A stretch of DNA of 64,000 nt, from the NCBI RefSeq assembly GCF_009389715.1, contig NC_052404.1, positions 4,728,913 to 4,792,912 of the forward strand, in the 5' to 3' direction. This DNA is from Phoenix dactylifera. Its lineage: Eukaryota; Streptophyta; Magnoliopsida; Arecales; Arecaceae. Shown here one piece after another: positions 3,358 to 20,787 of this stretch. A model generated the notes under the pieces. That model did no database searches, was not told where the DNA came from, and saw nothing but the letters and a program-made list of their open reading frames with translations. The translations under genes were made by a program, and so were the position numbers. How positions within the stretch are numbered: position 1 is the first letter of the stretch; each line of letters starts with the position of its first letter.

Positions 3358-5772
3358 GTTTGGATGGCGTGGACCATCACGAGATAGCATAGGAACGGTT
3401 CTCTGTGTTGATGATGATGGGATACTAAGGGTTGGCTTTCCTGGAGCATCTAGAGGATGGAGAGCTGATCCTGCTGAGATTGAAAGAGTTGAAGAATTCA
3501 TGGTTGGTGACTGGGTCCGCATTCGCCCTGCACTGACAGCTGCTATACATGGTATGGAAGCTGTAACTCCTGGAAGCATTGGGATAGTATATTCTATCAG
3601 ACCAGATAGCAGCCTTCTGCTGGGTCTTTGCTATTTGCCTAATCCATGGCATTGTGAACCTGAAGAAGTTGAACCTGTTGAACCATTCAGGGTAATGAGA
3701 TGTATAATGTATAATTTGCTTTCTTTTTTTATTTTCGTTTTCTTTTTTTCCCCTTTCAGTACATTCTGCTATTCGTCTGTCGATTTTGTTTCTATTTCTG
3801 ATTATATCCTCGGTCCTTCCAGATTGGTGATCAAGTATGTGTAAAAAGATCTGTTGCAGAGCCTAGATATGCTTGGGGTGGTGAGACACATCACAGTGTG
3901 GGAAAAATTATAGACATAGAGAATGATGGTCTACTCATAGTTGACATTCCAAATCGATCATCTACATGGCAAGCTGATCCTTCTGATATGGAAAAAGTTG
4001 AGAATTTTAAGGTATGGTCCCATTATCATTTATTACTGCCACTGTTATTGTCTTACGTCAGATCTGCATTTCTAAGTCTTTTTCTTCCCCAATAATGCTG
4101 GTGTGTAGGTGGGTGACTGGGTTAGAGTTAAAGCTTCGGTACCATCTCCAAAATATGGATGGGAAGATGTCACACGAAATAGTATTGGAATAATCCATAG
4201 TCTAGAAGATGGCGGTGATATGGGTGTTGCTTTCTGCTTTAGGAGCAAGCCTTTCTGTTGCTCGGTGGCGGACATGGAGAAGGTGCAGCCATTTGAAGCA
4301 GGCCAAAGAATTCATGTGATGCCATCTATATCTCAGCCACGACTTGGATGGTCGAATGAAACTGCTGCAACTATTGGGACGATATCAAGAATAGACATGG
4401 ATGGAACTTTGAATGTTAGTTACATGTATTATTGCTATTTTGCTATATTATTAATGTTTGGTTTTTGTGGCATGTTTATTTGACTTTGCTTATGAAATTT
4501 TAACTGATGTTCCATGTGCAGGTTAGGGTGGCTGGCAGAAGTAGCTTGTGGAAAGTTGCTCCAGGTGATGCTGAGAGACTTTCAGGCTTTGAGGTTGGAG
4601 ACTGGGTGCGTCTGAAGCCAAGCCTCGGGGCTAGACCCACTTATGACTGGAACAACATTGGGAAGGAAAGTATAGCTGTGGTGCATAGTATACAAGACTC
4701 TGGTTACTTGGAATTGGCTGGCTGTTTTAGGAAAGGAAAATGGACAACTCATTATATGGATGTTGAGAAGGTCCCATGTTTGAAAGTTGGTCAGCATGTT
4801 CGGTTTCGCACTGGTCTAGTTGAGCCCAGATGGGGCTGGAGAGATGCTCGGCCTGATTCTAGAGGTATCATAACTGGTGTGCATGCAGATGGAGAAGTGA
4901 GAGTGGCCTTTTTTGGTTTTCCAGGGTTTTGGAGAGGAGACCCTGCAGACCTTGAGAAGGAGGAAATGTTTGAGGTCGGGGAATGGGTGAGGCTCAGAGA
5001 TGATGCAGGCAGCTGGAAGTCCTTGAAACCTGGAAGCACCGGTATTGTTCATGGAATAGGGTACGAAGGCGACTTGTGGGATGGAACTGTGCATGTTGCG
5101 TTTTGTGGTCAGCAGGAAAGGTGGGTGGGACCGACCAACCAGCTCGAAAGAGTAGATAGGCTTGTTGCAGGACAACGGGTTAGGATAAAGAAATGTGTGA
5201 AGCAGCCCAGATTTGGATGGTCTAAGAGTCATGCAAGCATAGGAACAATATCATCCATAGATGCAGATGGAAAGCTAAGAATATACACACCAGCAGGATT
5301 CAAGGCATGGATGATAGACCCAGCAGAGGTGGACAGAGTCGAGGAAGAAGAGGAAGTGCGTGTTGGAGACTGGGTAAAGGTGAGAGAAACTGTTACGACG
5401 CCAACATACCAGTGGGGCGATGTAAGCCATGCCAGCATGGGGGTAGTGCACAGAGCAGAGGATGGGGAACTCTGGGTTGCATTCTGTTTCAGTGAAAGGC
5501 TATGGGTATGCAAAGAGTGGGAGGTGGGAAAGGTTCGACCATTCAAGGTGGGAGACAAGGTAAGGATAAGACCAGGTCTAACAGTGCCTAGGTGGGGATG
5601 GGGCATGGAGACATTTGCGAGCAAGGGTGAGGTGATGGGAGTGGATGCTAATGGGAAGCTACGGATCAAGTTTAAGTGGAGGGATGGAAGGTTGTGGATA
5701 GGGGATCCTGCGGATATTGTTCTTGATGAAAGTTCAGACGCAACCAGCAACACCGATGACTGCCATTCCTAG
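3358..5772 (+). CDS. KEG: KEG-type RING E3 ubiquitin ligase, C-terminal HERC2-like repeat region (partial)
   Basis: Four exons read in phase: 3358-3691, 3823-4011, 4109-4414, 4522-5772, ending in TAG. All introns start GT and end AG. They give about 692 residues, the C-terminal part of a protein that is about 1,600 aa in Arabidopsis KEG. The visible part is eleven copies (the first partial) of a 60-75 residue repeat with a GDWVR or GQRVR start, a PxxGW turn, SIGTI/SIGIV and a closing W-x-DPA-D/E-E/M-E-K-V block. KEG joins RING, kinase and ankyrin domains to such HERC2-like repeats; the first three must lie upstream of the window. The family ubiquitinates ABI5 and related ABA regulators and acts in trans-Golgi/endosomal traffic; that role is family knowledge. 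No frameshift or stop is visible. The last exon is long (1,251 bases). Confidence 0.92.
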
Positions 5773-6533
5773 GGAATTCAGTAGTTCTTTTACTCTTTTA
5801 TTTGTTCCTTGTTTAATTGTCAAAATTAAATGTCTCGACCTTGAGCTGGTTTAGAAGGTTCCTGGCACATCTATCAGATCGTGGCCGCAGAGACATCGTT
5901 TTGGCAATAAGAAGGCCGGTTTTTCTTCATGAAGGTTTAGAGGTCAAGTTTGTCCGGCTGGTCTGTACTCGTAAATTTATCTATGAGCTTTTATTACCAT
6001 CTGTCTAGATCATACTAATGTACAGGTTGTTAGACCTGAACGTTAAATTGAAATGGTCCCGTGTATTTTATGCGTGGTGCTATATTAATTTTCTTTAGAT
6101 GCCAAAGTTTTCCATTCATTACTCGTAAAACATGATGTATATGGTAAGCTTTATATTGAAGTCTTGTTATATATGTATTTTTATTATATTGGGTGACTTG
6201 CGAGTTAGGAATTGGATGACTTTGATGTGCGGACCAATGCAATAAAAGGTGATGGTAGGGTCGTTTACCAACAAATGTGTAATAAATGTTTGGTGTTTTG
6301 TCCTCTTCTAACATAACCTTTTTTTTTTTTTTTTTCCCTTCTTTTGTTGTTGTTGTTTATATTCTAATGTGCCCCTTGCTCGCACCCGTGGAACCATGGT
6401 TCTTCGTAGTCGCTAGGGGCGGGCGCTAGAGGCACTGGAGAAAAAAAATGTGGGATGGTAGTTTTCTATTTTGTCATATCTTCTAGCGTTCATCTTTGTA
6501 AAAAAAAAAAAAAAAAATTATGTACTTTTTTGC
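5773..6533 (+). other. KEG 3' UTR and spacer to the MULE
   Basis: Downstream of the KEG stop the sequence stays non-repetitive to about 6300. AATAAA hexamers at about 6239 and 6280 are plausible poly(A) signals. A T run (6320-6336) and an A run (6500-6517) follow. No further gene. The MULE boundary begins within about 250 bases of the probable KEG transcript end. Confidence 0.5.
6523..6533. repeat. Left target-site duplication candidate of the MULE
   Basis: The 11 bases TACTTTTTTGC here recur as the 12 bases TACTTTTTTTGC at 18258-18269 (one extra T). They bracket a unit with matching inverted ends. MULEs typically duplicate 8-11 bp. A T-run length change in one copy would explain the one-base difference. 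Confidence 0.6.
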
Positions 6534-6612
6534 GTAAATTAATTCCCGACCCTCCCCTTGACTGCTGTGTAATGCTAAGTCCCTGTTGACCCAAACCATG
6601 TTTACCGGTCCA
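6534..6612 (+). repeat. Left terminal inverted repeat of the MULE (imperfect, about 80 bp)
   Basis: Matches, in inverted sense, the 80 bases ending at 18257: AATTAAT near the tip, AGTCCCTGTT at 6578-6587, CCGGTCC at 6605-6611. Between these anchors the two ends have diverged. Confidence 0.6.
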
Positions 6613-6810
6613 CGATTAGGGATAATCTTAATTACCGGTCCATAACAGAGGTTTGTTTTTTTCTTTTTTCCCGAAGCTGCCCTTTCGTTGCCGTTAAGGT
6701 TGAAAATGTGGAATCAGTTGGGAAATGGACCGCAAAGAGGGGAATATGGCTCGGATTCTCCATTGGAATCGTGGAGAAACTGGATTTCTCCATTGTCAGC
6801 GATTCGCGGA

Positions 6811-7212
6811 GATCATTCGCATGGGATGGACCGGCTTCTTCGATTTTGCTTCTTGGATCCGGAAGAATGAAGCGGAAAGGGGAGACTTTGAAGCGGAAGA
6901 AACTACAGTTCAGATTGTTGATGGATATTGTGAGTTCCATTGCTGATCATTCGCATGGGATGGACCGGCTTCTTCGATTTTGCTTCTTGGATCCGGAAGA
7001 ATGAAGCGGAAAGGGGAGACTTTGAAGCGGAAGAAACTACAGTTCAGATTGTTCATGGATATTGTGACTTCCATTGCTGATCATTCGCATGGGATGGACC
7101 GGCTTCTTCGATTTTGCTTCTTGGATCCGGAAGAATGAAGCGGAAAGGGGAGACTTTGAAGCGGAAGAAACTACAGTTCAGATTGTTCATGGATATTGTG
7201 ACTTCCATTGCT
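6811..7212 (+). repeat. 134-bp subterminal tandem repeat, three copies
   Basis: Copies at 6811-6944, 6945-7078 and 7079-7212. Copies 2 and 3 look identical; copy 1 differs at two bases near its end (GTTGATGG against GTTCATGG, GTGAGTT against GTGACTT). Each copy contains GGGATGGACCGGCTTC, and a close relative of it also occurs twice near the right end of the element. The array lies in the probable leader of the transposase gene. The unit length is not a multiple of three, and the open frames across it are not credible proteins. Confidence 0.95.
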
Positions 7213-7476
7213 GATTTCATATTCGAAATAAAGTTGCTATCCCTCTTTTCTCCTCTGTTTCCCAGCTTTGATCAAATGAAAACCCTGTTTTAGCTGCTGG
7301 ATTATCTTGATGTTTTTCTGCCATTGCTCATATACTGTTTGGAGACCTAAACGTGTGACTCTCATTGATGATATCATATTCGAGAAATAGTTGCTGTGTC
7401 AGCATTCCCTTCGCTTCATCGTTGTAATAGCATTCGGAACTTCAATCATTTCCCCTTTTTTCATTTTTCTATTGTC

Positions 7477-9920
7477 ATGGATTCCAAAAAAACAAATAGC
7501 CCTGTTTTCATGGCTATTTGTTCTTATGGTGGCGAAGCTATTATTATTTCCATCTCCGAAGACACAAATCTCGATCAAATTTACAAAGAAATAGTGGATA
7601 GGTGGAGACATCTGTCTGATACAATGGTAGAAGTTAAATATTTTATTCCAAACAAGTCTAGAATGGTTGTTTCGCTCCTGGGGGATAATGATGTTCGGAA
7701 AATGCATCAAATACACGTCAACTTAAATGCGCCGGTGATCGAGTTGGTTGTTAGTCATATTCCATGCTTGATCGAAGCAGCCGATGTCGTAATTGATATG
7801 AGGTAATGCAGTAGTTAATTGCATCTTTTTCTATTTTGGTAATCTTAGTTTAACTCTTTGTTGTATTGCATATTTCACATATTAGTTTTTTCATGTTAAT
7901 CACTAATTTAATAGTTAGTATGCTGAATTTTTGTTAAACTAATTGTAGGGATAGTGGCCCAGCCCAAAATGTTGAGTGCAGTTGCCGATCAAAAATTTTT
8001 TCAAAAGGTAGCTCAAGTAATTTCGGTCGAGTTGTTGAAGAAACAAGAGCGGCAATCGAAGAGCAACCTAGTCAAAGAAATTCTTTGGATGCTTGGAAAA
8101 CTTCTATTGAGGGTGTTGGTCAGGAGTTCAATGATGTGGAAACTCTTCGCGACACGATTCGCAACTTTTGCATTGCAAATTGTAGAGATTTTGTATTTGT
8201 GAAGAACGATCGCCTGCGAGTGACCGTGGAATGTGCATACGAAGGATGTGAATGGCGTATCCATGCTTCCCGACTTGGAAATCAAGAAAGCTTTGCAATT
8301 AAAAAAATGAATAGTCAGCATACATGTGGCGGAGGGTTGCAAGTCCGGTCGCATCCTAAGGCTTCGAAACGTTGGGTTTCAAACATAGTTAAAGAAAAAC
8401 TTCAAGATATGCCGTTATATAGGCCTACTGATATCGTAAAGGATATTCGTCGAGAATATGGTGTTGAATTGCCGTATCATCAAGCTTGGCATGGCAAGGA
8501 GGTGGCTATGAAGGACCTTTATGGTCACAGATCAAAATCTTATGACCGGATACGCTGGTATTGCGATGCCATTCTTGAGACCAACCCTGGCAGCATAGCG
8601 AAGTATGAAACTATTGAAGGTCGATTCAGACGCCTATTTATTTCATTTCATGCTTCAGTAGTGGGTTTCATAAGAGGTTGTAGACCTTTGATTTTTATGG
8701 ATGGAACATTTATAAAGCATAAGGATGGAGGAGTAGTTCTTGGTGCGACTTCCAAAGATGCGAACGACGATATGTTTCCTATTGCTTACGGTGTGGTCGA
8801 TACGGAGACGGATGACAATTGGGACTGGTTTTGTCGGAATTTGAAAGAAGCAATTTATAGTTGCATTGAGTGGCGAAGTGAGCAGATCACATTTATGACG
8901 GATAGACATCAAGGAATTATTAAATCAGTGCCGAAGTACTTTCCTGGTAGTTACCACTCATATTGTTTCCGTCATGTGAAAGACAACTTCAAGAATCAGG
9001 TATGTATAGTCATATTTTTAATTTTCAGCATAGAATATATCTAACTAATTTAGGATGTTGATGATCTCATCCTTTTATTATTGTTAATGCAGGTGCTTGT
9101 CCATTATTGTGCAAGTGAGAGAAAAAGGCTGCTCGATTTACTAAATGCTGCTGCTTATACTCCAAGGCTGAATGTTTTCCACAAAATAATTAGCAAGCTT
9201 ACATTAGATGCTCCAGGGAGTAGAACTTTTCTCCTTAATGCAAATCCGAAGCATTGGGCAAATGCAGTATTTCCAGGTCCACGATGGGGTATTATGACAT
9301 CTAACGTGGCAGAGTGTTTCAATAGTTGGATCTTGGAGGCTCGCCATCTTCCCGTGCCTCAGTTGGTTGACCATATTAGGATTCAAATAATGACATTGAT
9401 GCATGAACGGCGTAATCGAGGTTACAATATTCAAACAAATCTATGCCCAGATGCAGAGAAAGTATTGCATAGAAATGCAGAAGACGGTCGGAGATTATCC
9501 GTATTTACGTCAAACATAATGATATATGACGTAAAGGATACAAACTACTCTTGCGAAGTTGACCTCCAGAATAACAAATGCTCTTGTGGCGAGTGGCACA
9601 TATTCCGCATGCCATGTAAGCATGCATGTGCATGCATTGAGAAGGCTGGTAGATCACTGTACCACTTCACTGATAATTGTTTCAAAACTGAAATGTACAG
9701 AGCAACATATGCCGAAGCTATTAGTCCAATTCCTGATATCGAGGAGCCCTATAGTGCCTCAGATGAGATTCATATTTTACCCCCAATCAGAAAGACTCGA
9801 CCAGGTAGGCCAAAAAAAAAGAGAAGACCTTCGCAAGGGGAGTTAGTACGTCATATAAAATGTGGACGCTGCGGAAAGCTTGGGCACAACAGAAGAACTT
9901 GTAATGTGGCCATCGACTAA
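7477..9920 (+). CDS. mudrA: MURA-type transposase of the MULE
   Basis: Exons 7477-7802, 7949-8999 and 9093-9920 join in phase to 734 residues with no stop. Order: N-terminal PB1-like domain (about 1-105), MuDR N-terminal DNA-binding region with a C/H pattern (about 170-235, ending SQHTCGGG), then the MULE transposase core. Candidate catalytic residues are D360 in FMDGTF, D427 in MTDRHQG and E533 in SNVAECFNSW, with the CFRHVKDNF block between. A SWIM zinc finger follows (CSCG at about 622, CKHAC at about 634), an AT-hook-like RPGRPKKKRR patch, and a CCHC knuckle (CGRCGKLGHNRRTC, about 716-729). The start ATG 7477 is chosen because the PB1 domain begins there; an in-frame region upstream is only UTR. 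All three acidic residues are intact, so the protein may be active. Confidence 0.93.
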
Positions 9921-10097
9921 ATATTTTGGAGATTAGGTGTAATGTATGGAGATCTGAATTTTTTATTTTTGTCGTAGTCATTTGCTTCTTATTTTGTTGT
10001 GGTAGAATTTTGCAGAAACAATTGATGTCAATGAAATGAATTGCATTGTTCTCTGGTTCCCCCGGCACACTCTTACTGGCACACCATGGCACACTCT

Positions 10098-10676
10098 CTT
10101 GGCACACCATGGCACACCTCTGGTTGTGCAACATGTCAGTCATATGTACTATGCAGCATACAGTAATCCGAAGCACACCGTTTATTAGTACTGGAACACT
10201 GTATTTATAGCAAATAAAAGGAGTTAACATAATATGGTACACCAAGGCACACTGTTAAACTTCACTGAAAGTTCCTGTCACCATGTTAAGTGAACTTCGA
10301 ACACAATATGTGAATCCTGGCACACATTCCATACTGGTGCACACTTCATTGGATTGCAATGGAACGCATTTAAGTATGATTGGAATCCACTTCTAGAAGC
10401 CTGGCACATAAATGTTCATTCTACGCAAACAGTAAACTATGCTTGGAACACATTTCAGTATGTGGTGTGCAGACTTATAAAAGCCTGGCACTCATTTTTT
10501 TTAGGTTTGCACCCAACAAAAATTGCTTGGAACACACTTGTTTTAGACAATGTCAGATATTTGAGTTGCTTTGAAACAATTTCAGATACTTTAGTGTGCC
10601 ATTTGCCCCGGCACACTCTTACTGTTGATGATATTGGACAAATATAAGACAGAAGCTTCTTGAAATTCAGATGATT
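10098..10676 (+). repeat. Large tandem duplication, copy 1 (about 580 bp)
   Basis: Matches 10711-11271 with offset about 613 at its start and about 595 at its end, because of small deletions in copy 2. Most bases agree, for example GGTTGTGCAACATGTCA and GACAGAAGCTTCTTGAAATT in both. The open frames in both copies are unlike any protein I know and are not annotated. Confidence 0.93.
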
Positions 10677-10710
10677 GTGTGTCTCTATACCAATTTCTTA
10701 GTAAGCAACC

Positions 10711-11271
10711 CTTGGCACACCATGGCACACCTCTGGTTGTGCAACATGTCAATCATATGTACTACGCAGCATACAGTAATCCGAAGCACACCGTTTATTA
10801 GTACTGGAACACTGTATTTATAGCAAATAAAAGGAGTTAACATAATATGGTACACCAAGGCACACTGTTAAAATTCACTGAAAGTTCCTGTCACCATGTT
10901 AAGTGAACTTCGAACACAATCTGTGAATCCTGGCACACATTCCATACTGGTGCACACTTCATTGGATTGCAATGGAACGCATTTAAGTATGATTGGAATC
11001 CACTTGTAGAAGCCTGGCACATAAATGTTCATTCTACAGAAACAGTAAGCTACGCTTGGAACACATTTCAGTATGTGGTGTGCTCACTTATAAAAGCCTG
11101 GCACTCATTTTTTTAAGGTTTGCACCCAATAAAAATTGCTTGGAACACACTTGTTTTAGACAATGTCAGATTTTTGAGTTGCTCTTTAGTGTGCCATTTG
11201 CCCCGGCACACTCTTACTGTTGATGATATTGGACAAATATAAGACAGAAGCTTCTTGAAATTCAGATGATT
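10711..11271 (+). repeat. Large tandem duplication, copy 2 (about 560 bp)
   Basis: Second copy of the block at 10098-10676, with an internal deletion near 11180. It is followed directly by a fragment (11272-11320) resembling 10421-10460, so a third, truncated copy was probably present. Confidence 0.93.
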
Positions 11272-11926
11272 CGCAAACAGTAAACTATGCTTGGAACGCA
11301 TTTAAGTATGAGTGGAACCCATACATAAATCCCAAGCACACAACTGACACTTCTATTTAAACAATTGAACACACTTCTACATTCCTGGAACACAATTAAT
11401 TACTGTTTGCACGCAGCATCGTTTGGTTGGAACACAGTAGTTGAATCCTGTCTCGGAAGTTAATGTTCAACAGAAACATGATTTTCACTTTGTACTTGCA
11501 TATTTGTCCCGTACACTCAAGGTTTGCAAAGTTGGTCATTACTTTACTCAAAACCTGCTTTTCAACTAAAATAAAAACATACCTGTAAGAAAAACAGTAT
11601 CGAAATCAATTAAATGCAGCATGACAAACCAAACCATGGCACCTAGCTTGGCACAAAATTTGTTAATGTTTGCACACATCAACGTTTGGTTGGAACACAC
11701 TTGTTGTTATCTATCCCTGGAGGTTGTGTTCAACTGGCTTCTAGCGTTTCAGAAAATTCATTGTGCCATCAGAAGCATGGCACACCATGGCACCAAAAAA
11801 AAGGATGGCGGGGAGTCACAAAAATCAACAAATACACATTGTCATTGCATCCTTTATATAGCACGACAGCAAAGAGATATAGGCAAATTAGACTTTTCTC
11901 AAAATCATTCAATTTAATCGTCATAA

Positions 11927-12122
11927 CTGTGTCAACCAGTATAATTACACAGAAATTAAAACTGTTACAAGAAAGATTTACATCTGAAGGTACTGTGTCA
12001 ACCAGTATAATTACACAGAAATTAAAACTGTTACAAGAAAGATTTACATCTGAAGGTACTGTGTCAACCAGTATAATTACACAGAAATTAAAACTGTTAC
12101 AAGAAAGATTTACATCTGAAGG
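11927..12122 (+). repeat. 66-bp tandem repeat, three copies
   Basis: Three identical-looking 66-base units starting at 11927, 11993 and 12059, each with CTGTGTCAACCAGTATAATT at its start. The array ends 16 bases before the Ulp1-gene stop, so it occupies the start of that gene's 3' UTR on the - strand. The period is a multiple of three but lies outside the coding region. Confidence 0.95.
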
Positions 12123-12137
12123 CTCTATTCTCTATGC

Positions 12138-15100
12138 CTATTTCTTCTTCTCGTCATACCACGACCAGAACCTATCAATTGTAAGACAACGAGTATTTAA
12201 CAAAAGTTTTCCTGCAACCCAGGTCCTGTACATAGAGGGATCCTTGAACTCCTCCGGTAATGCTCTGGTAGTGCCACGTATCAGTTCCTCGGCATACATG
12301 AGGACATACACCCCGCAGTCCACACTATCTAGTGGCTGTTGTGCGCACTCTCTAATTTCTCGAACGGGACAATCAGGGATATGGTATCCAATGCAATCTT
12401 CTAACCAGTGTCTCAAAAATGATGCCTGCAAGAATGTTCACAATATATTATATCTGCTTAACTTGTGATTCAATTTAAAAACAAAAACGATGTAAAAGAT
12501 TGTACAATTGATACCCACAAATTTGACAACGTCATCTGGTACATGGAAGCTCCACATCGAGTTGTAGCATTCAAAACATTGGTTCGTCAAGTCCAGAGCA
12601 ATTAGATACCAATGCCATCCCGTATTCATTGGAATAAATAAATATCTACACTGTTCGAGATCGAAAAGTTGAATTTGCCCTAACCACTTCCGAATACTAG
12701 GCTGCAAAGAATCTAAAATCTTTCTGGTAACATCAGCTGTCACATCACGAACGCTTGAAAGATGTGGAACTACAGCAGCCTATTAAATTTATAATGGCAC
12801 ACAATTAAAATGTTTCAAAACGTGGTTCCTCTAATTTAAAATGTTGATGTAAATAACCTGTATCTCGCAACGCATGTAAATACTTGGATTATCAACGGGC
12901 TCAACGTATTCTCGATGGAATAGCTCCAACACAGAAAAATACACGTTCATGACCTGTACTTCAGGAAAAATGTTAAATAAGCAAGTGATATAGATTAAAC
13001 TGAGGTACGTCTCTAATTTACGTACATCACTGCGTAGTGGCCCATCATGAAGGAGCTGGACTATGGCATCACCAGTGCATGATGGTCTCAAATTATCTGC
13101 ATCTTCCCATATTGTTTGCCTACGTATTTCATTGACATGTTTAAGGTACTTTATTTGTGAGAAATGTGAAATTGCACAGTTAATAAAAGAAACTTACTCG
13201 AAGTTGTTTCCTTGTAGAAAGAAATCAATAGCTTCTTCATAGTAAAGAGGAAGTATACCTTCCCCCTTCCCGTGATACGTTAGTTTTGGTGCCACTTTTA
13301 TTGACCTTTCAGGCGACGCCGATCTCTCAACATCAATTATGTCACAGGATTGTAGTAATTGCTAAGAACAATTAAAAGTGAAGACAACAATATAAGTTAG
13401 CAAAGACATGGGATATTGAATCAGCAGCTGACATATGGATATAGAATTTTAGGGAAAATGAAAATAATGCTATACCTCTTTAGGAGGGAGAGTTTCTTTG
13501 ACGATTGGAGTAGACCTGTGTAGCTCCATAAGTGCAGTACTTATAGGCAACAGAAACTTACTTGAGTAATCGGGCGAATCATCCAATTTCTTGACTTTCT
13601 GTTTTTTGTGTGCTCTTTTATAAGTCTTCGAAAATTGGGATATGGCTTTTGCTTTCTCCGTTGCCTTTCTCTCGCGTGCTCCAAACTTCACGCGCCTGCA
13701 TAAGGAGGAGACATATTTGGTGGTCGATCCACATTTCTTCTCGCAAGGAGTATCATGCTCCCAAATAACCTGCTAGTATTATGCAATTTCAGTAAATTAC
13801 AATAATTATTTAATTGTCAAATTATAATTTGCCTTACGATGCAAAAGTTACTCTACCTCCAAGTCATCTGCACTATGGTGCATATCCTCTTCTTCCGCAT
13901 CGCATTGATCCATAGCATCATCAAAAGGTGTTGCTTCTCGAAGGAACTTTTCACCTTGTTGGACATCAGTGGGCCAAATAACCTGATAGGAATATGCATT
14001 TTACACTTCTACAATATACACTACAAATCTATAATCAAATAATGATGTCAAGAAAATAATTACAAACCTCCACCATTTCTTCACTATGTTGCAAAACCTC
14101 TAATTCCGCTGCAGCTTGATCCAGAGCTTCACCAACTGCAGTATGATCTTCCCTCACCTGAGAATGTGTGGTATTAAAGTCATACAAAAATACAAGTTCA
14201 ACAAGAAGATTGAGTTAATAATTCGTCAAACTTTGATTACCATTGTAGAACCAGTCGCATGCTCAGTTCGTTGGTCATCCGACAAGAGGCCCTTATCTTG
14301 GAGGACCTTTTCGACTATGGACAACCTCTTATCTATCAGGACCAACCGGCGATCGTCCCCCCCTTCATCATCCCCAACAGTTTCAGGGTCTTGTAAACTA
14401 AAGCCATGTCTTCTTAAACAGCTCTCAACCAATGTCATGCGTTTCTCTATGCTTTCCATTGGATGAGGTTCCCTATGGCTAGATGAAGGTAACTAAAACA
14501 AAAGAGTTATCAAACTAACTGTATGTATTTCCTTAAAGACTGTTGAAATTATATGTGCGCAAGTTGTTTGTAAGCATGTGCTAGCAAGAATTAATGATGT
14601 GCGTAGAAAAGATAGGTGTGTGCCAAATGGAGCTAAGTGTATGCCGGCAAGTGAAAAGTGCATACCGAATGCAAGTAAATAGGTGCCTAATGGTTTAAAG
14701 TTATTGCTATTGCGAAAGAATAATGGTTACAGATATGATATATTGTGTGCCATATAGAAATAAGAACTTCCCATCAATTTACAGGACTTCCCATCAATTT
14801 ACAGGAGTGTTCCAAATGAAGAAAGATGTGTGCCGAGTTGTTGTTAGTGTGTGCTGCCAATAAATATTGATGTCTAGATGCAAGAGGAAAGAAGAAGGGG
14901 CATCGGGAAGAAGAGAAGAAAAAAGAAAAGAAAAAGAAATGCTTAACAAACGCTTAAACTGTGTATTACAGTTTCAGATACTATTATTTCTATGCTTAAA
15001 AGTGTATCGGAGTTTCATAAAATTCAGCATGCCATCTTATGCAACATTTTCTGAATATCACTTAACTGGGTGCACAGTTTAATTAACTATGTTCGCAGTT

Positions 15101-17450
15101 AATTTATCTGTGTTCGGAAACAAAGAAATTGTGTGCAGAGTAGAACTTATTGTGTGCATAATTGAAGCAACTATGTTTCAGGGTAGAATAACAGTCTTCA
15201 AACTTTGCCAAACCTTCTATTCATCAAAATTAAGTGTTCACTATTTCATTAAGAGATGTAGCAATGTAGATTTAGTGTTTACTCCATTTTAGTACCCCAT
15301 CTCAAACCACTTTCAACAATTTCAGAATAATACTTAACTGTGTGCGCAGTTTTATTAACTGTGTTCGCAGTTAATTTAACTGTGCTTTCCAACAAATAAA
15401 CTGTGTGCATAGTTGAAATAACTATGTTCCGGGATAGAATAACGGTGTTCAAATATTACTAAACCTTGTACTTATCAAAAATAGGAGTTCACTGTTTCAT
15501 TTTGGGATGTGCCAATCTGGATTGAGTGTTTATGCCCTTTTACTACCTCATCCCAACCACTTCTACAGCAATTCCCTAATAACGTTTAACTGTGTGCACA
15601 GTTCTATTTACTATGTTGACAGACAAAATAACTGAGTTCCGAAACAAATAAACTGTGTGTATAGTATCATAAACTGTGTGCACAGTTGAAATAACTGTGT
15701 TCCGGGGTAGAATAACGGTGATTAAACTTTGCCAAACCTTCTACTCATCAAAAATAGGAGTTCACTGCTTCATTTTGGGATGTGCCAATCTGGATTGAGT
15801 GTTTATGCCCTTTTACTACCTCATCCCAACCACTTCTACAACAATTTCCTAATAACGTTTAACTGTGTGCACAGTTCTATTTACTATGTTGACAGACAAA
15901 ATAACTGTGTTCCGAAACAAATAAACTGTGTGTATAGTATCATAAACTGTGTGCACAGTTGAAATAACTGTGTTCCGGGGTAGAATAACGGTGATTAAAC
16001 TTTGCCAAACCTTCTACTCATCAAAAATAGGAGTTCACTGCTTCATTTTGGGATGTGCCAATCTGGATTGAGTGTTTATGCCCTTTTACTACCTCATCCC
16101 AACCACTTCTACAACAATTTCCTAATAACGTTTAACTGTGTGCACAGTTCTATTTACTATGTTGACAGATAAAATAACTGTGTGCTGCCAAGAAATAATG
16201 ATGTCTATCTACAAGAGAGGTGTGTGCCAAATGTACATAAGTGTGTGCCGCCAATTGAAAGATACGTGCGAAAGTCTAGAATGATTGTAAGATTTCTGTA
16301 CAAACATTGAAAATGTTTTGTAAACCCTTTACCAATGCATCATCTCTTCGCATCTCTATGGAAGCAACGTCTCGTGGCCTTCCTCGCGAGAGAATGTGCA
16401 ACTCCTCCTCTCTAGGCTCTAGCTTCTCGATCACCTGTTGCAAGCGAAAACTTAAGTTTGGCATCAACTCAAATTATTTTCGATGTAACAAATAATAAGT
16501 CAAACCTGATATCGTTTTAAGTTCTTCATGATTTCAGAAATCACGTCCACCTTGCGAGGAAATGAGACATTGCTCCAACGCAGGAGACGTGGATACATGA
16601 AGGTGGGTCGTTGGCTTCCAACAAGGCTGTTCGCATGCTCAACAGCCCATGCCTGCAAAAAATCAATGTAAACATAAAATTAAAAGTAAATACATATCTT
16701 AACAATGAAATTAAAAATAGATATTAAGATGCTTACCACCAAAGCGACCGTGCAGCCGTCCATATATTTAGCCGATCCTTTCCCAGTGATATTCCTTGAC
16801 CGCACACTATCGGCTACACTAGGTATTTGTTGGCGAAGAAAAGCAAAAACAGCAAGACCCCAACTATATGAACCTAAGCGGTCTAAATCATCAAGATATG
16901 AACATAATGCCTTAGGAACGTAATAGTGTATAGTTGGAAAGAGGATAGTCACAAAGACATATAGAACCCATAACTTTGTGAAATCCTCTACATCTTGTTG
17001 TCCGCTCTTTCCAACAAGAAATTGTAATCTACTCTTTACTGCATTTCTATTGGCTTTTTTATGGTCCCCCTCAAAAAAACGGATGATGAGGTCAGACGTG
17101 ACCCTCCCCTTACTATGCAATTCTACCTCATCGCCCGTCGCACTTAGACCAAGAATTAGTGCAAAATCGCTCCCTACAAAAGGAACTAAAACCTTACTAA
17201 ACCAAAAACCCTCCTCCTCGTCATCCCAGAAGGAGAGCAGAGTGTCCAGGACAGGCCTACTCTGTTTAATATATGGCAGACCTAGCAAATGGCCAAAAGG
17301 TGTGCCGGTGATCCTAACCTTTTGCTCATGCGACAATAACGGAACTAGGGTGACCATAAAATTAACAAAATGGCTGAAATAGCACCTACCATTGACCATA
17401 TTTTTAGGGCCAACAGCATGTGCTCTGCGTTTAGTCTTAATTGGAGCCAT
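12138..17450 (-). CDS. DUF1985/Ulp1-like cysteine protease gene carried by the MULE
   Basis: Twelve exons on -, read by splice signals and phase: 17450-16737, 16652-16506, 16434-16306, 14492-14241, 14157-14068, 13982-13857, 13769-13476, 13361-13198, 13119-13026, 12953-12858, 12779-12515, 12425-12138; about 885 residues. The N-terminal third is a DUF1985 domain (TPFGHLLGLP, FWFSKVLVPFVGSDFALILGL). A charged, coiled-coil-prone middle follows, then a lysine-rich basic patch. The last two exons form a C48 (Ulp1) peptidase fold with the His motif NTGWHWYLIALDL and the Cys motif DSVDCGVYVLMY. Ulp1 enzymes cleave SUMO conjugates; substrate and purpose in MULEs are unknown. Two oddities: the usual YDS acid position reads YNS, and the obvious GT at the end of exon 11 gives phase 1 whereas the last exon needs phase 0. 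An acceptor giving a start at 12400 would restore frame at the cost of about eight residues. Confidence 0.8.
14570..16265 (-). repeat. GGMACAC motif field (- orientation)
   Basis: On + this stretch shows GTGTGCC, GTATGCC, GTGTTCC and GTGTGCAC variants every few tens of bases, for example GTGTGTGCCAAATGG near 14618 and again near 16221. These are reverse complements of the GGMACAC words downstream of the transposase gene. On the Ulp1 transcript strand they therefore read GGMACAC, as they do on the transposase transcript strand. Confidence 0.75.
15062..16190 (+). repeat. About 272-bp tandem array, four copies plus a part
   Basis: Register mark TTAACTG occurs at 15062, 15334, 15586, 15859 and 16132, giving periods 272, 252, 273 and 273. 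The last two full copies are almost identical, the first two more diverged. Each copy has CTGTGTGCACAGTT (almost palindromic), a TGTGTTCCG word and the sentence GGGATGTGCCAATCTGGATT in the better copies. The array lies inside intron 3 of the Ulp1 gene. Confidence 0.93.
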
Positions 17451-18257
17451 GAAAATTGTCTGCAACACAAATATATTCAAACACAAATTGTGAATAAAAT
17501 CAACTCAAAAATAGAAACATATAATTGAGTAAAACATAGACGGGATAATGAATGATTTTAATAAACTATAACAACGAACAGAGGACGAAAGAAATTAAAT
17601 CCTAAGCATTCGCACATTATGAAAATAAATGCCCAACAATACTATATTACAGTTTGTTGCTACGAAAACCTAATCGAGAAATTATGATCCAGGGATTACA
17701 AACCGTCGAAGAACCGGCAATATGCCTCGGAGAGGGTTTGGGAAGTGAGGTCGAACGAAGCGCCGTCGACCAACGATCAGGGCGAAGACGCGAGCGTCAA
17801 GGAAAGCTTCAGGTGTGGGAGTCGACAAAATGCCGTCGTCTCAGAGCTCTCAGTCGGAGACCGGCCGGAAAATAGAGTCGACAGAGGAACTCTCGGTCTG
17901 GAGCAAGAGTGATTTCCCGGTGGGTAGCTTGTTTACGGTCTTAGGGTTTCAAACGGGGGACACCAGATCAACCGGAATCGGTGAGGAAGATGGAAATTTT
18001 CGTGGGGAGGAGATAGGATTGCAAAATGGGGGAAAAGGGGAAGAGATGAAGCCGAATCCGTTGGGGACTTCAGGGCTAATATCGTCTCAAACAGAAAGAG
18101 AGAAACGAGATGGACCGGCTGTTTCGGGATATATCTCAGGGTTATTTTCGTCTCAAACATAACGGCACAAACGGGATGGACCGGCTGTTACAAATAGAGT
18201 AAACAGGGACTAAAAATTATAGTCCGGTCCAACACTGGACCGGCCATTAATTCCCCC
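17451..18257 (-). other. Leader region of the Ulp1 gene and right end of the MULE
   Basis: GC-richer, stop-poor sequence upstream of the Ulp1 start (ATG 17450, -). It includes a two-copy repeat of about 63 bases (about 18056-18185) with TCGTCTCAAACA and GATGGACCGGCTGTT. This looks like promoter plus 5' UTR, and its composition would also fit captured host leader sequence; that is inference. The + strand frame 17815-18162 is not convincing as a gene. Confidence 0.5.
18178..18257 (-). repeat. Right terminal inverted repeat of the MULE
   Basis: Inverted partner of 6534-6612: GGACCGG at 18178-18184, AACAGGGACT at 18202-18211, ATTAATT just inside 18257. An additional CCGGTCC...GGACCGG pair lies at 18224-18243. 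Confidence 0.6.
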
Positions 18258-18269
18258 TACTTTTTTTGC
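18258..18269. repeat. Right target-site duplication candidate of the MULE
   Basis: TACTTTTTTTGC, one T longer than its partner at 6523-6533. Confidence 0.6.
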
Positions 18270-19440
18270 TAATGGATTCAGCACTTTTTCAAAAAATAAA
18301 AAATCATATGTAGTTTTTTTTCTTAGTGAGCTTTTTTATTTATTCTCTTTTTTGTCAAGCCATCTTTTTTGCTCATCTTTTTTTTCTGTCTTTTTTTCTT
18401 CTCCAAATTCCTTTTTTTGAAAAGATTTTTTACACTTAAGAGTTCATAAATTTTGAGAAATGATATGTATATACTTTTTTATATTAGGCAAAGTTAGAAA
18501 ATTATATACTATGTATTGGTATTGATAAATACCATATTTTGAAATTGTACATTGATTTACCTAGAGATATGTATTGACTTGCTAAATGACTAATTTGCTT
18601 TGTATGTATTACTTAGCTATAAAGTGTAAATTAATAAAAAGCATATTTTGAAAATTATATATTAATTTATTTATACATGTATTGGATCACTGTTAGGTGT
18701 GTATTAAAGAAGTTTGCAGTACATATCAAAAAGTTGACGAATATGTATCACTTGTCTATGTAATGTGTATTGGTGAATATAATATTTTGGAAATTATATA
18801 CCAATTTGCTTAAAAATGTATGTCAAGTTGCTAAATGACTAATTTATATTATATCACCTGACCGTGTATTATGTACTGGTGCACATTATGTTCTGAAAAC
18901 TATATATTGATTTATCTAGAGATAATATTAGCTTGGTAAATGACTAATCTGCTTAGTGTTCATCATCTGATCATATAATATAAATCAGCAAGAATTATAT
19001 TTTATTTTTTTGATTTTTGAATCATAGATCGATAAAACTATCAGTAAAAGAAGTTTCTGATTTTTAGATTTTTTTTATAAAACTATTATTATATTTTCTG
19101 ATTTTTGTTCCTATTTTGTGAGCATGAAAGGGTGCCGTTTACGTATCAGCGATGGAATGAGCATCTAGCCAGAAGATCAATCATTCTTTCGCACGAAAGG
19201 AACCGGCCTGCAGACTGGATCGTCTTTTTTGTTGCCCGGCATGCTGGAGAAGTTCTTTGGACTACAGCAGTAGACGCTTCTTCTTCTTTATGTTTTTTAC
19301 TTTATATTTACGTTAAAGCTTTATAGATTGCCGTTTTTATTTAAAAAAAAAAAAAAAAACCGCTCTCCTCCCTATGTAAAATCCCGTCTTAGCCTCAAAC
19401 TAACGCGATACCTTTTCTTTTCTTTTTACTCCCACAGAAC
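18270..19440. other. AT-rich spacer with degenerate repeats, upstream of the MOT1 remnant
   Basis: From about 18470 to 18990 a degenerate unit of roughly 100-200 bases returns: an ATTTTGAAAATTATAT-like block, then GATTTACCTAGAGATA, then GCTAAATGACTAAT (18578, 18831 and a variant at 18935). The rest is T-rich. A 72-codon frame at 19105-19326 resembles nothing I know. No start exon for MOT1 could be found, although the bases before 19438 (ACTCCCACAG) would suit an intron acceptor. Confidence 0.5.
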
Positions 19441-20787
19441 GAATAATTTGATCAACGTGGAAGACGGCGAGACTCCCAACGGCACCCCGGCCGGCCTCTT
19501 CGCCAAGGTCCGGGCCAACCTAGCCTTGCAGTCAAAATGGTCCGAGCTGAACGGTGCCATGGGAGACCTCGGCACCTACATCCCCATCATCCTCGCCTTG
19601 GCTCTGGCCAACGGCCTCGACCTCGGCACCACCCTCAATCTTCACCGGCGTCTACAACATCCTCACCGGCGCCCTCTACGGCGTCCCCATGCCCGTCCAG
19701 CCCATGAAATCCATCGCCGCCGTCGCCATCTCCAGCGCCCCAGACTTCGCCGTGCCCGAGATCTTGGCCGCCGGGATCTGCACCTCGATCGGCCGTCATC
19801 TTCTTCCTTGGCGCCACCAGGCTCATGCAACTCGCCTACAAGCTCATCCCCCTCCCCGTCGTGCGAGGAATTCAGCTATCTCAAGGGTTATCCTTCGCGA
19901 TGACCGCCGTCAAATACATCCGGCACGATCAAGATCTCGCAAAAGGGAAATCTTTGGGCGAGAGGTCATGGCTAGGCCTCGATGGACTGCTTCTAGCCAT
20001 AGTCGCCGCCATATTTATCGTAGTAATAAATGGTGCAGGCGAGGAAGTAGAAGCTAATAACGAGCTTGCTCATGGAGGATCCGGCGAAGAACAGAGACGA
20101 CGACGGAGGCGATGGAGACAATTACTAGCCTCGGTGCCGTCCGCCGTGATTGTCTTCTTGTTAGGCATTATACTGGCTATGATTAGAAAGCCGAGCGCCG
20201 TAAAAGAATTGAAAGCAGGGCCATCAGCTTTCCATGCGGTGAAAATCTCCAAGCATGCATGGAAAGAAGGATTCATCAAAGGAGCAGTGCCTCAGATTCC
20301 ACTGTCGGTGCTGAATTCGGTGATCGCCGTGTGCAAGCTCTCGACCGACCTCTTTCCCGACAAGCCGGAGGCGACGGCGACATCGGTGTCGGTCACTGTC
20401 GGGCTGATGAATTTGGTTGGTTGTTGGTTCGGGGCGATGCCGTGCTGCCACGGAGCCGGCGGGCTCGCAGGGCAGTACAAGTTCGGCGGGCGGAGCGGCG
20501 GGTGCGTGGCGGTGCTCGGGGCGGCGAAGCTGGTCATCGGAGTGGTGCTTGGGGGGTCGATGCTGAGAGTGCTAGTGGAGTTTCCGGTGGGGTTGTTGGG
20601 GGTGCTGCTGCTGTTCGCCGGAGTGGAGCTGGCGATGGCGGCGAGGGACATCGCGTCTAAGAAGGAGGCGTTTGTGATGCTGGTGTGCGCTGCGGCGTCG
20701 CTGGTGGGCTCCGGCGCCTCCCTTGGGTTTGTTTGTGGGATCGCCGTCCATCTCCTGCTCGTGCTACGAAGGTGGTGGATGAAATGA
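19441..20787 (+). pseudogene. MOT1: MOT1-type molybdate transporter, frameshifted
   Basis: Three consecutive frames together give almost the whole MOT1 (SULTR5-like) protein. The N-terminal part is SELNGAMGDLGTYIPIILAL to DLGTTL; the next frame begins IFTGVYNILTGALYGVPMP; the third begins VIFFLGATRLMQLAYKLIPL and runs to the stop at 20787. It includes MPCCHGAGGLAGQYKFG, the second MOT1 signature, and several hydrophobic helices. One extra base near 19636 (CCCTCAATCTTC) and an extra 1 or 4 bases near 19786-19791 (TCGATCGGCC) break the frame; both shift the same way, so they do not compensate. No in-frame ATG precedes the conserved part. Related MOT1 genes are intronless with a short leader and import molybdate for Mo-cofactor synthesis. 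It could be a real pseudogene or a gene with assembly indels; the long clean third frame favours recent damage or error. Confidence 0.8.

Follow-up and report, generated by a model that had tools for sequence, protein, structure and literature searches.

A date palm MULE with two oppositely oriented arrays of a 21-bp unit, putative docking sites for its own PMD/DUF1985-Ulp1 protein

In the VANDAL elements of Arabidopsis, VANC targets are described as arrays of same-orientation motifs in non-coding regions, the motif being YAGTATTAY for VANC21 and AGTTGTCC / AGTTGTAC for VANC6 (Hosaka et al., 2017, PMC5735166). The same non-coding regions are reported to be attacked by RdDM, and VANDAL ends are reported to be degenerate (PMC10398659). 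Some VANC genes are described as carrying a Ulp1 domain (KIU) and as acting on non-coding motifs of their own group (PMC13317346), and Kaonashi (KI) is presented as a non-TIR MULE in which mudrA is accompanied by a reverse-oriented gene with a ULP protease domain (PMC13317346, PMC2528002). A crystal structure of VANC21 has been referred to as unpublished (PMC8756742). Here we describe an element of the date palm, Phoenix dactylifera, that has a comparable layout. It lies within a stretch of 64,000 nucleotides of contig NC_052404.1, the whole of which was analysed and is referred to below as the window.

The element is a MULE of 11724 bases on the + strand (6534..18257) with degenerate ends, which were read from the sequence. 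The flanking sequences TACTTTTTTGC (6523-6533) and TACTTTTTTTGC (18258-18269) form a candidate target-site duplication, which is approximate, since the two copies (11 and 12 bp) differ by one T. The left boundary is backed by the sister copies L016 and L027, in which similarity begins at 6539, and the right end is common to L047 and also, over 64 bp at 77%, to L050. A repeat search of the MULE revealed no terminal inverted arms reaching 25 nt. The site GGACCGG/CCGGTCC is found five times near the left end (6605, 6635, 6828, 6962 and 7096, together spanning 6605..7102, with three of the five inside a 134-bp triplication) and four times near the right end (18112, 18178, 18224 and 18237, spanning 18112..18243), and it does not occur in 7300-17600. 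Beyond the right end there are further reading frames at 19328-20787, which we take to resemble a plant molybdate transporter (MOT1).

Two genes are carried by the element. The MURA transposase gene occupies 7396..9920 on the + strand and matches the Pfam families DBD_Tnp_Mut (7.1e-19), MULE (6.1e-18) and SWIM (1.3e-4); it also has a zinc-knuckle-like motif by eye, for which the Pfam value of zf-CCHC_2 (0.53) is not significant. The N-terminal stretch of MURA, at 7396-7806, is PB1-like, with a Pfam E of 0.001 that is below the cut-off. Further downstream, at 12138..17450 on the − strand, lies a VANC/KIU-like gene with a PMD/DUF1985-type N-terminal part (16506-17450) and a split C48 (Ulp1) domain (12138-12779); its introns were set by eye and with sibling tblastn, and its exons are approximate. 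Peptidase_C48 is recognised by Pfam in the Ulp1-gene exons at 4.5e-7 and 3e-4. When spliced, the first two exons match PMD at 1.1e-10 (41.7 bits, above the cut-off of 34.9), and an overlapping stretch matches DUF1985 at 6.6e-6 (26.6 bits, below the cut-off of 35.1). The first exon has no sequence match among sequences of solved structures, and a single-sequence AlphaFold model of the N-terminal exon is uninformative (pLDDT 35.7). The Ulp1 domain, compared between the window (12462-12779) and the sister loci L034, L035, L038 and L039, which represent groups A, B and C, retains the HW, Q and DCG motifs and reads YNS at the position that is presumably the site of the catalytic Asp (YDS) in C48 proteases. 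Read at face value, such a domain is possibly a non-cleaving SUMO binder. The element accordingly shows the traits of a KI-type non-TIR MULE, namely a mudrA-type transposase, a downstream reverse Ulp1 (C48) gene and no long TIRs, with a short, approximate candidate target-site duplication.

The preliminary description of this DNA had proposed two oppositely oriented fields of the heptamer GGMACAC, one per transcription unit, with dozens of words that share the sense of each gene's own transcript. Field 1 (10064..11785, + strand) lies downstream of MURA on a degraded 21-bp lattice and includes a 613-bp duplication (10098-10710, repeated from 10711 onward). Field 2 (14561..16249, − strand) lies in the intron between exon pieces 3 and 4 of the Ulp1 gene and includes a 273-bp tandem repeat at 15396-16183, with an older copy at 15036-15305. 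GGMACAC was counted per strand and compared with 1000 dinucleotide shuffles of each region. In 10055-11800 it occurs 23 times on the + strand and twice on the − strand (shuffle means 0.52 and 0.18, maxima 4 and 3), and in 14551-16265 it is absent from the + strand and occurs nine times on the − strand (means 0.09 and 0.34, maxima 2 and 3). Counts of this size, above the shuffle maximum in both regions, indicate that the two oppositely oriented fields are real, and the words do run with their respective genes, on the + strand with MURA and on the − strand with the Ulp1 gene. The term 'dozens' holds for the + strand, whose count is fed in part by the 613-bp duplication, but not for the nine words of the − strand. 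The long repeats of the two fields differ, at 613 and 273 bp, as had been stated.

With the wider word KGMACAC the counts are 27 on + and 4 on − in field 1, and 0 on + and 19 on − in field 2. Within the element, exons, as approximately placed, make up 5071 of the 11724 bases, and they contain none of the 28 + words and one of the 24 − words of this wider form. GGMACAC itself is absent from both strands of the MURA gene (7396-9920), and the rest of the window beyond the element, 52,276 bases, holds two on the + strand and four on the − strand. A separate set of three nearly identical 66-bp repeats is located at 11926-12123, in the gap that separates field 1 from the end of the Ulp1 gene.

The spacing of the words had been described as irregular, which is wrong, and the two fields had been taken as independent of each other, which the analysis does not support. 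The autocorrelation maxima fall on multiples of 21 in each field, and when words with one mismatch are included, both show repeated steps of 21 and 42. A cyclic profile that was trained blind to the word gave a best period of 21 among periods of 19-23, with 278 and 365 bits for the two fields, compared with 80-103 bits when shuffled sequence was trained at 21 (six shuffles per field). The 21-bp unit is TTGGCACACAtTTaattATGC in field 1 and TgtGCACACAGTTAaTtcaAc in field 2. For exact words, 10 of 13 successive gaps in field 2 are multiples of 21, and in field 1 this is true of 6 of the 24 successive gaps of up to 130, where about one would be expected by chance, indicating that the lattice is degraded in field 1. 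The 21-state profile of each field was also scored against the other field; in the same-sense orientation the scores were 167 and 121 bits, in antisense −8 and −4 bits (maximum 0.5 and 4.3 bits in 60 shuffles each). Since the fields recognise one another in the same sense only, they are two diverged arrays of one 21-bp unit. As far as the sequence tells, this shared unit is approximately KGMACACAnTTA plus a variable linker, and KGMACACA(n)TTA is its conserved half. We also considered whether the arrays are a coding repeat of seven residues; the stretches are open, but field 1 contains stops (seen by eye, unscored), and this was rejected.

A search of the 773 Mb host genome with the MURA exon gave at least 135 matches. 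The longer matches with 75-100% identity among those listed form a close set of 50, and a distant set of 16 was drawn from 20 listed matches at 32-44% identity. Of the 50 close MURAs, 40 are followed within 20 kb by a PMD exon on the other strand, and this is true of none of the 16 distant ones (33-44% identity). This pairing used the stronger PMD-exon matches only, and inspection of the weaker ones by eye found none within 20 kb downstream of any unpaired or distant MURA. In ten PMD-exon matches, several of which are paired with group C MURAs, there is one TAA at an equal open-frame length of 257 aa (examples are C1:20961018, C2:11426385 and C5:12573280), which is perhaps a shifted splice site rather than decay. 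The protein of the MURA exon is 99-100% identical between the window, C2:24624937-24625851 and C405:196642-197556, a sign of recent activity of the family.

Arrays were surveyed in 30 MURA loci (L004-L033) with 1.5-kb flanks, the window's own copy being L005. GGMACAC is present downstream of MURA in 16 of the 30, with 3-9 copies on the + strand and none on the − strand in each. In group C, which has eight members, the array begins further on, and six of the seven that were examined carry it (L036 and L040-L044). Six loci in which the MURA end is shortened or other sequence lies downstream (L010-L013, L015 and L023) were set aside, and the group C locus L029 was left out of the count. Among the 23 that remained, same-oriented words are found in 22, that is, in 21 sisters and the window's own copy. 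The exception, L038 (the same locus as L030), lacks the array, with one KGMACAC on the + strand and three on the − strand, and yet keeps both genes, with MURA upstream, matches to 8 of 11 Ulp1-gene exon queries and a PMD exon just beyond. Siblings that lack the words while keeping both genes had been named at the outset as the observation that would speak against the proposal; one such sibling was thus seen, alongside 22 copies with words. L001-L003 show no similarity to the element.

The tandem repeats in which the words are embedded vary between copies, from 613 and 273 bp in the window to approximately 147 bp in L045 and 21 bp in L036 and L040-L044, with none in L038. The group C array is homogenised, with the unit GGGAACACAGTTAGCTTGTCT, and its words are all on one strand (166 + / 0 − in L036, 48-62 + / 0 − in L040-L044). 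In group B, KGMACAC in the array stretch numbers 57 + / 1 − in L035 and 59 + / 1 − in L039, where the autocorrelation peaks at 167 bp. L045 is a close copy of the window element (MURA 98% identical, exon pieces of the fetched stretch 93-100%), and its intron array is a rebuilt one that repeats about every 147 bp, holding 26 words in the gene sense and none against it. The corresponding introns of L046 and L047 have 16 words in the gene sense with one against, and five with none against, respectively. An intron word field is lacking in groups B and C, with no words in L035 and a single TGMACAC in L038. These comparisons bear out the expectation that siblings keep the word and its orientation while the surrounding repeats change, including in the rebuilt intron of L045. 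Between the genes of group C there are also many GAGTCGACTC / GTCGACC words (L036:300-1060 and L038:300-930), and a further coding-looking stretch follows the group C array at L036:6023-7001.

Ten sister-group arrays, each cut to 1600 nt as a test sequence, were then cross-scored by profile. Most model pairs gave 23-750 bits in the sense orientation, and the antisense score never exceeded 12 bits. The models of the homogenised group C array score the older arrays near zero (−11 to 12 bits), as is to be expected of over-specific models; the L045 model gave 2-23 bits on groups B and C.

It had further been suggested that the word is selected or repeatedly copied. In each of four arrays, the most informative run of eight adjacent columns, in which the word lies, exceeds the remaining thirteen columns 2.3- to 3.0-fold in information, and none of 144 uniform-decay simulations reached the observed contrast between word and linker (highest ratio 2.06), under a null that assumes a star-like history and ignores higher-order repeats. 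This contrast and the retention of the word in sisters speak for the suggestion. Against it, there is no clear sparing of the word between duplicates: comparisons of duplicates inside the window were not significant (Fisher p 0.09-1), and in some of these pairs the linker is better preserved than the words. Six tests on close copies yielded a single p of 0.04, uncorrected.

Genome-wide, two KGMACAC exactly 21 bp apart occur at 5139 places, compared with 36 for the reversed pattern. No array was found in the 4 kb downstream of any of five sampled distant MURA loci without the partner gene, each of which has 0-2 words per strand and negative profile scores, and the same is true of eleven blocks of 4 kb taken elsewhere in the window. 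These distant MURAs, the negative control here, are possibly domesticated genes and not elements. Among the places listed on contig C1, 2 of 11 array loci are near a MURA/PMD match. L050 (C1:8809000-8814000) has an array of 11 words on + and none on − with no MURA or Ulp1-gene match, and judging by its sequence it is a possible nonautonomous, gene-carrying derivative; the reading frames in it look RNase-H-like by eye. A field-2-type array at C1:15717950-15720800, between L048 and L049, is located beside a gene that by eye is NBS-LRR-like, and no MURA or Ulp1-gene match was found in the 4-5 kb examined on each side.

The orientation of the words, the lattice, its conservation in sisters, the non-coding placement, the linkage with PMD-Ulp1 and the absence of arrays from five sampled relatives that lack the PMD-Ulp1 gene lead us to consider it probable that the fields serve as docking arrays for the PMD/DUF1985-Ulp1 protein that the element encodes, by analogy the counterpart of VANC. 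We infer binding, demethylation and a reason for the 21 bp along the following lines. The protein would bind the numerous equally oriented words that lie in non-coding sequence of elements of its family and, once bound, strip silencing marks, and with silencing removed the transposase and the PMD-Ulp1 gene itself would be expressed. The array repeats would be continually rebuilt by unequal exchange or slippage. A step of 21 bp corresponds to two DNA turns, so that all words would share one face of the helix, an arrangement that would help proteins to bind next to each other. Points that count against docking arrays are that PMD and not DUF1985 passes the cut-off, that comparisons of duplicates inside the window show no significant sparing of the words and those of close copies little, that L038 has no array, that the intron of groups B and C has no field, that many arrays lie away from MURA/PMD matches, and that the distant MURAs of the control may be domesticated genes. 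A more tentative extension, which we think rather unlikely, is that a Ulp1-carrying VANC reads the two-turn (21-bp) lattice with one protein per unit, forming a filament over kilobases; array length and phase, not exact sequence, would then set the anti-silencing strength, and gene-less array derivatives would ride along in trans.

The arrays may alternatively be a neutral minisatellite, a 21-bp repeat that arose once in an ancestor and was passively expanded, duplicated and degraded, the word then being a mark of common descent. The lack of clear sparing of the words, in duplicates as well as in close copies, would be expected of such a repeat, and L038 without an array and the stray arrays away from genes also fit it. 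It does not account well for the failure of uniform decay to give the word/linker contrast in the four arrays (0 of 144 simulations, on the star-like null), for the near absence of words from exons or for the single orientation that prevails in each array, and we judge this history to be unlikely.

That the words bind an element protein had been suggested, either the transposase or a partner of Ulp1. The sequence points to the protein encoded by the Ulp1 gene; binding by the transposase is less likely, since the GGACCGG/CCGGTCC sites lie only near the ends of the element. MURA is encoded beside field 1, and L050 combines an array and a partial family right end with no match to MURA or the Ulp1 gene, as might be the case if MURA bound the words for transposition. 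The words are internal and absent from the ends, whereas GGACCGG/CCGGTCC is confined to both ends (five left, four right) and provides better candidates for transposase sites than GGMACAC does, so that a role of the words as MURA sites seems highly improbable. We attach equally little probability to the words being a signal at the RNA level, in the 3' flank of MURA and in the intron of the Ulp1 gene, that acts in processing, stability or as a small-RNA target. In its favour, the words of each field read in the same direction as the adjoining transcript, and gene-sense words recur in the intron arrays of L045, of L046 (16 in the gene sense, one against it) and of L047; against it, the array of L050 also keeps to a single orientation (11 + / 0 −) where no MURA or Ulp1-gene sequence is detectable, and groups B and C do without a field in the intron.

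Docking arrays for the PMD/DUF1985-Ulp1 protein thus remain the reading that we prefer. The layout matches VANC in the features that were tested, except that DUF1985 is below the cut-off, and we therefore file the element as VANC-like; by analogy it would work like a VANC system, of which it is a probable member. A VANC-type anti-silencing layout would in this way be extended from Arabidopsis to another plant genome, with tens of graded sister elements, among which the array-less L038, the rebuilt L045 and the homogenised L036 provide natural controls. It also gives a concrete predicted target, KGMACACAnTTA every 21 bp. The preliminary description knew of no account of such an arrangement. Similar systems are known from Arabidopsis. 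No description of a 21-bp lattice with VANC anti-silencing was found in the literature searched, which excludes Sasaki et al. 2022 (EMBO J), reportedly the key paper on KIU anti-silencing in eudicots. The lattice raises the question of whether the helical phasing of sites matters; a term search of the Hosaka et al. paper (2017, PMC5735166) found no mention of spacing, intervals, periodicity or helical arrangement in its main text.

When the known systems are set beside this locus, Kaonashi/KIU resembles it, by description, in being a non-TIR MULE with mudrA and a reverse Ulp1 gene, and differs in belonging to another plant. The TnpA motifs of En/Spm, which are short and numerous and whose binding protein is encoded by the element and also counteracts methylation, are subterminal in a CACTA element, whereas the words here are internal in a MULE. 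The VANC arrays of VANDAL21 and VANDAL6 are alike in having many same-orientation motifs, densely placed in non-coding parts of a MULE, and in having tandem repeats that are gained, lost or rebuilt between related copies. They differ in motif, and the date palm element has in addition a 21-bp lattice whose core is kept across subfamilies; this strict 21-bp lattice is its distinctive part.
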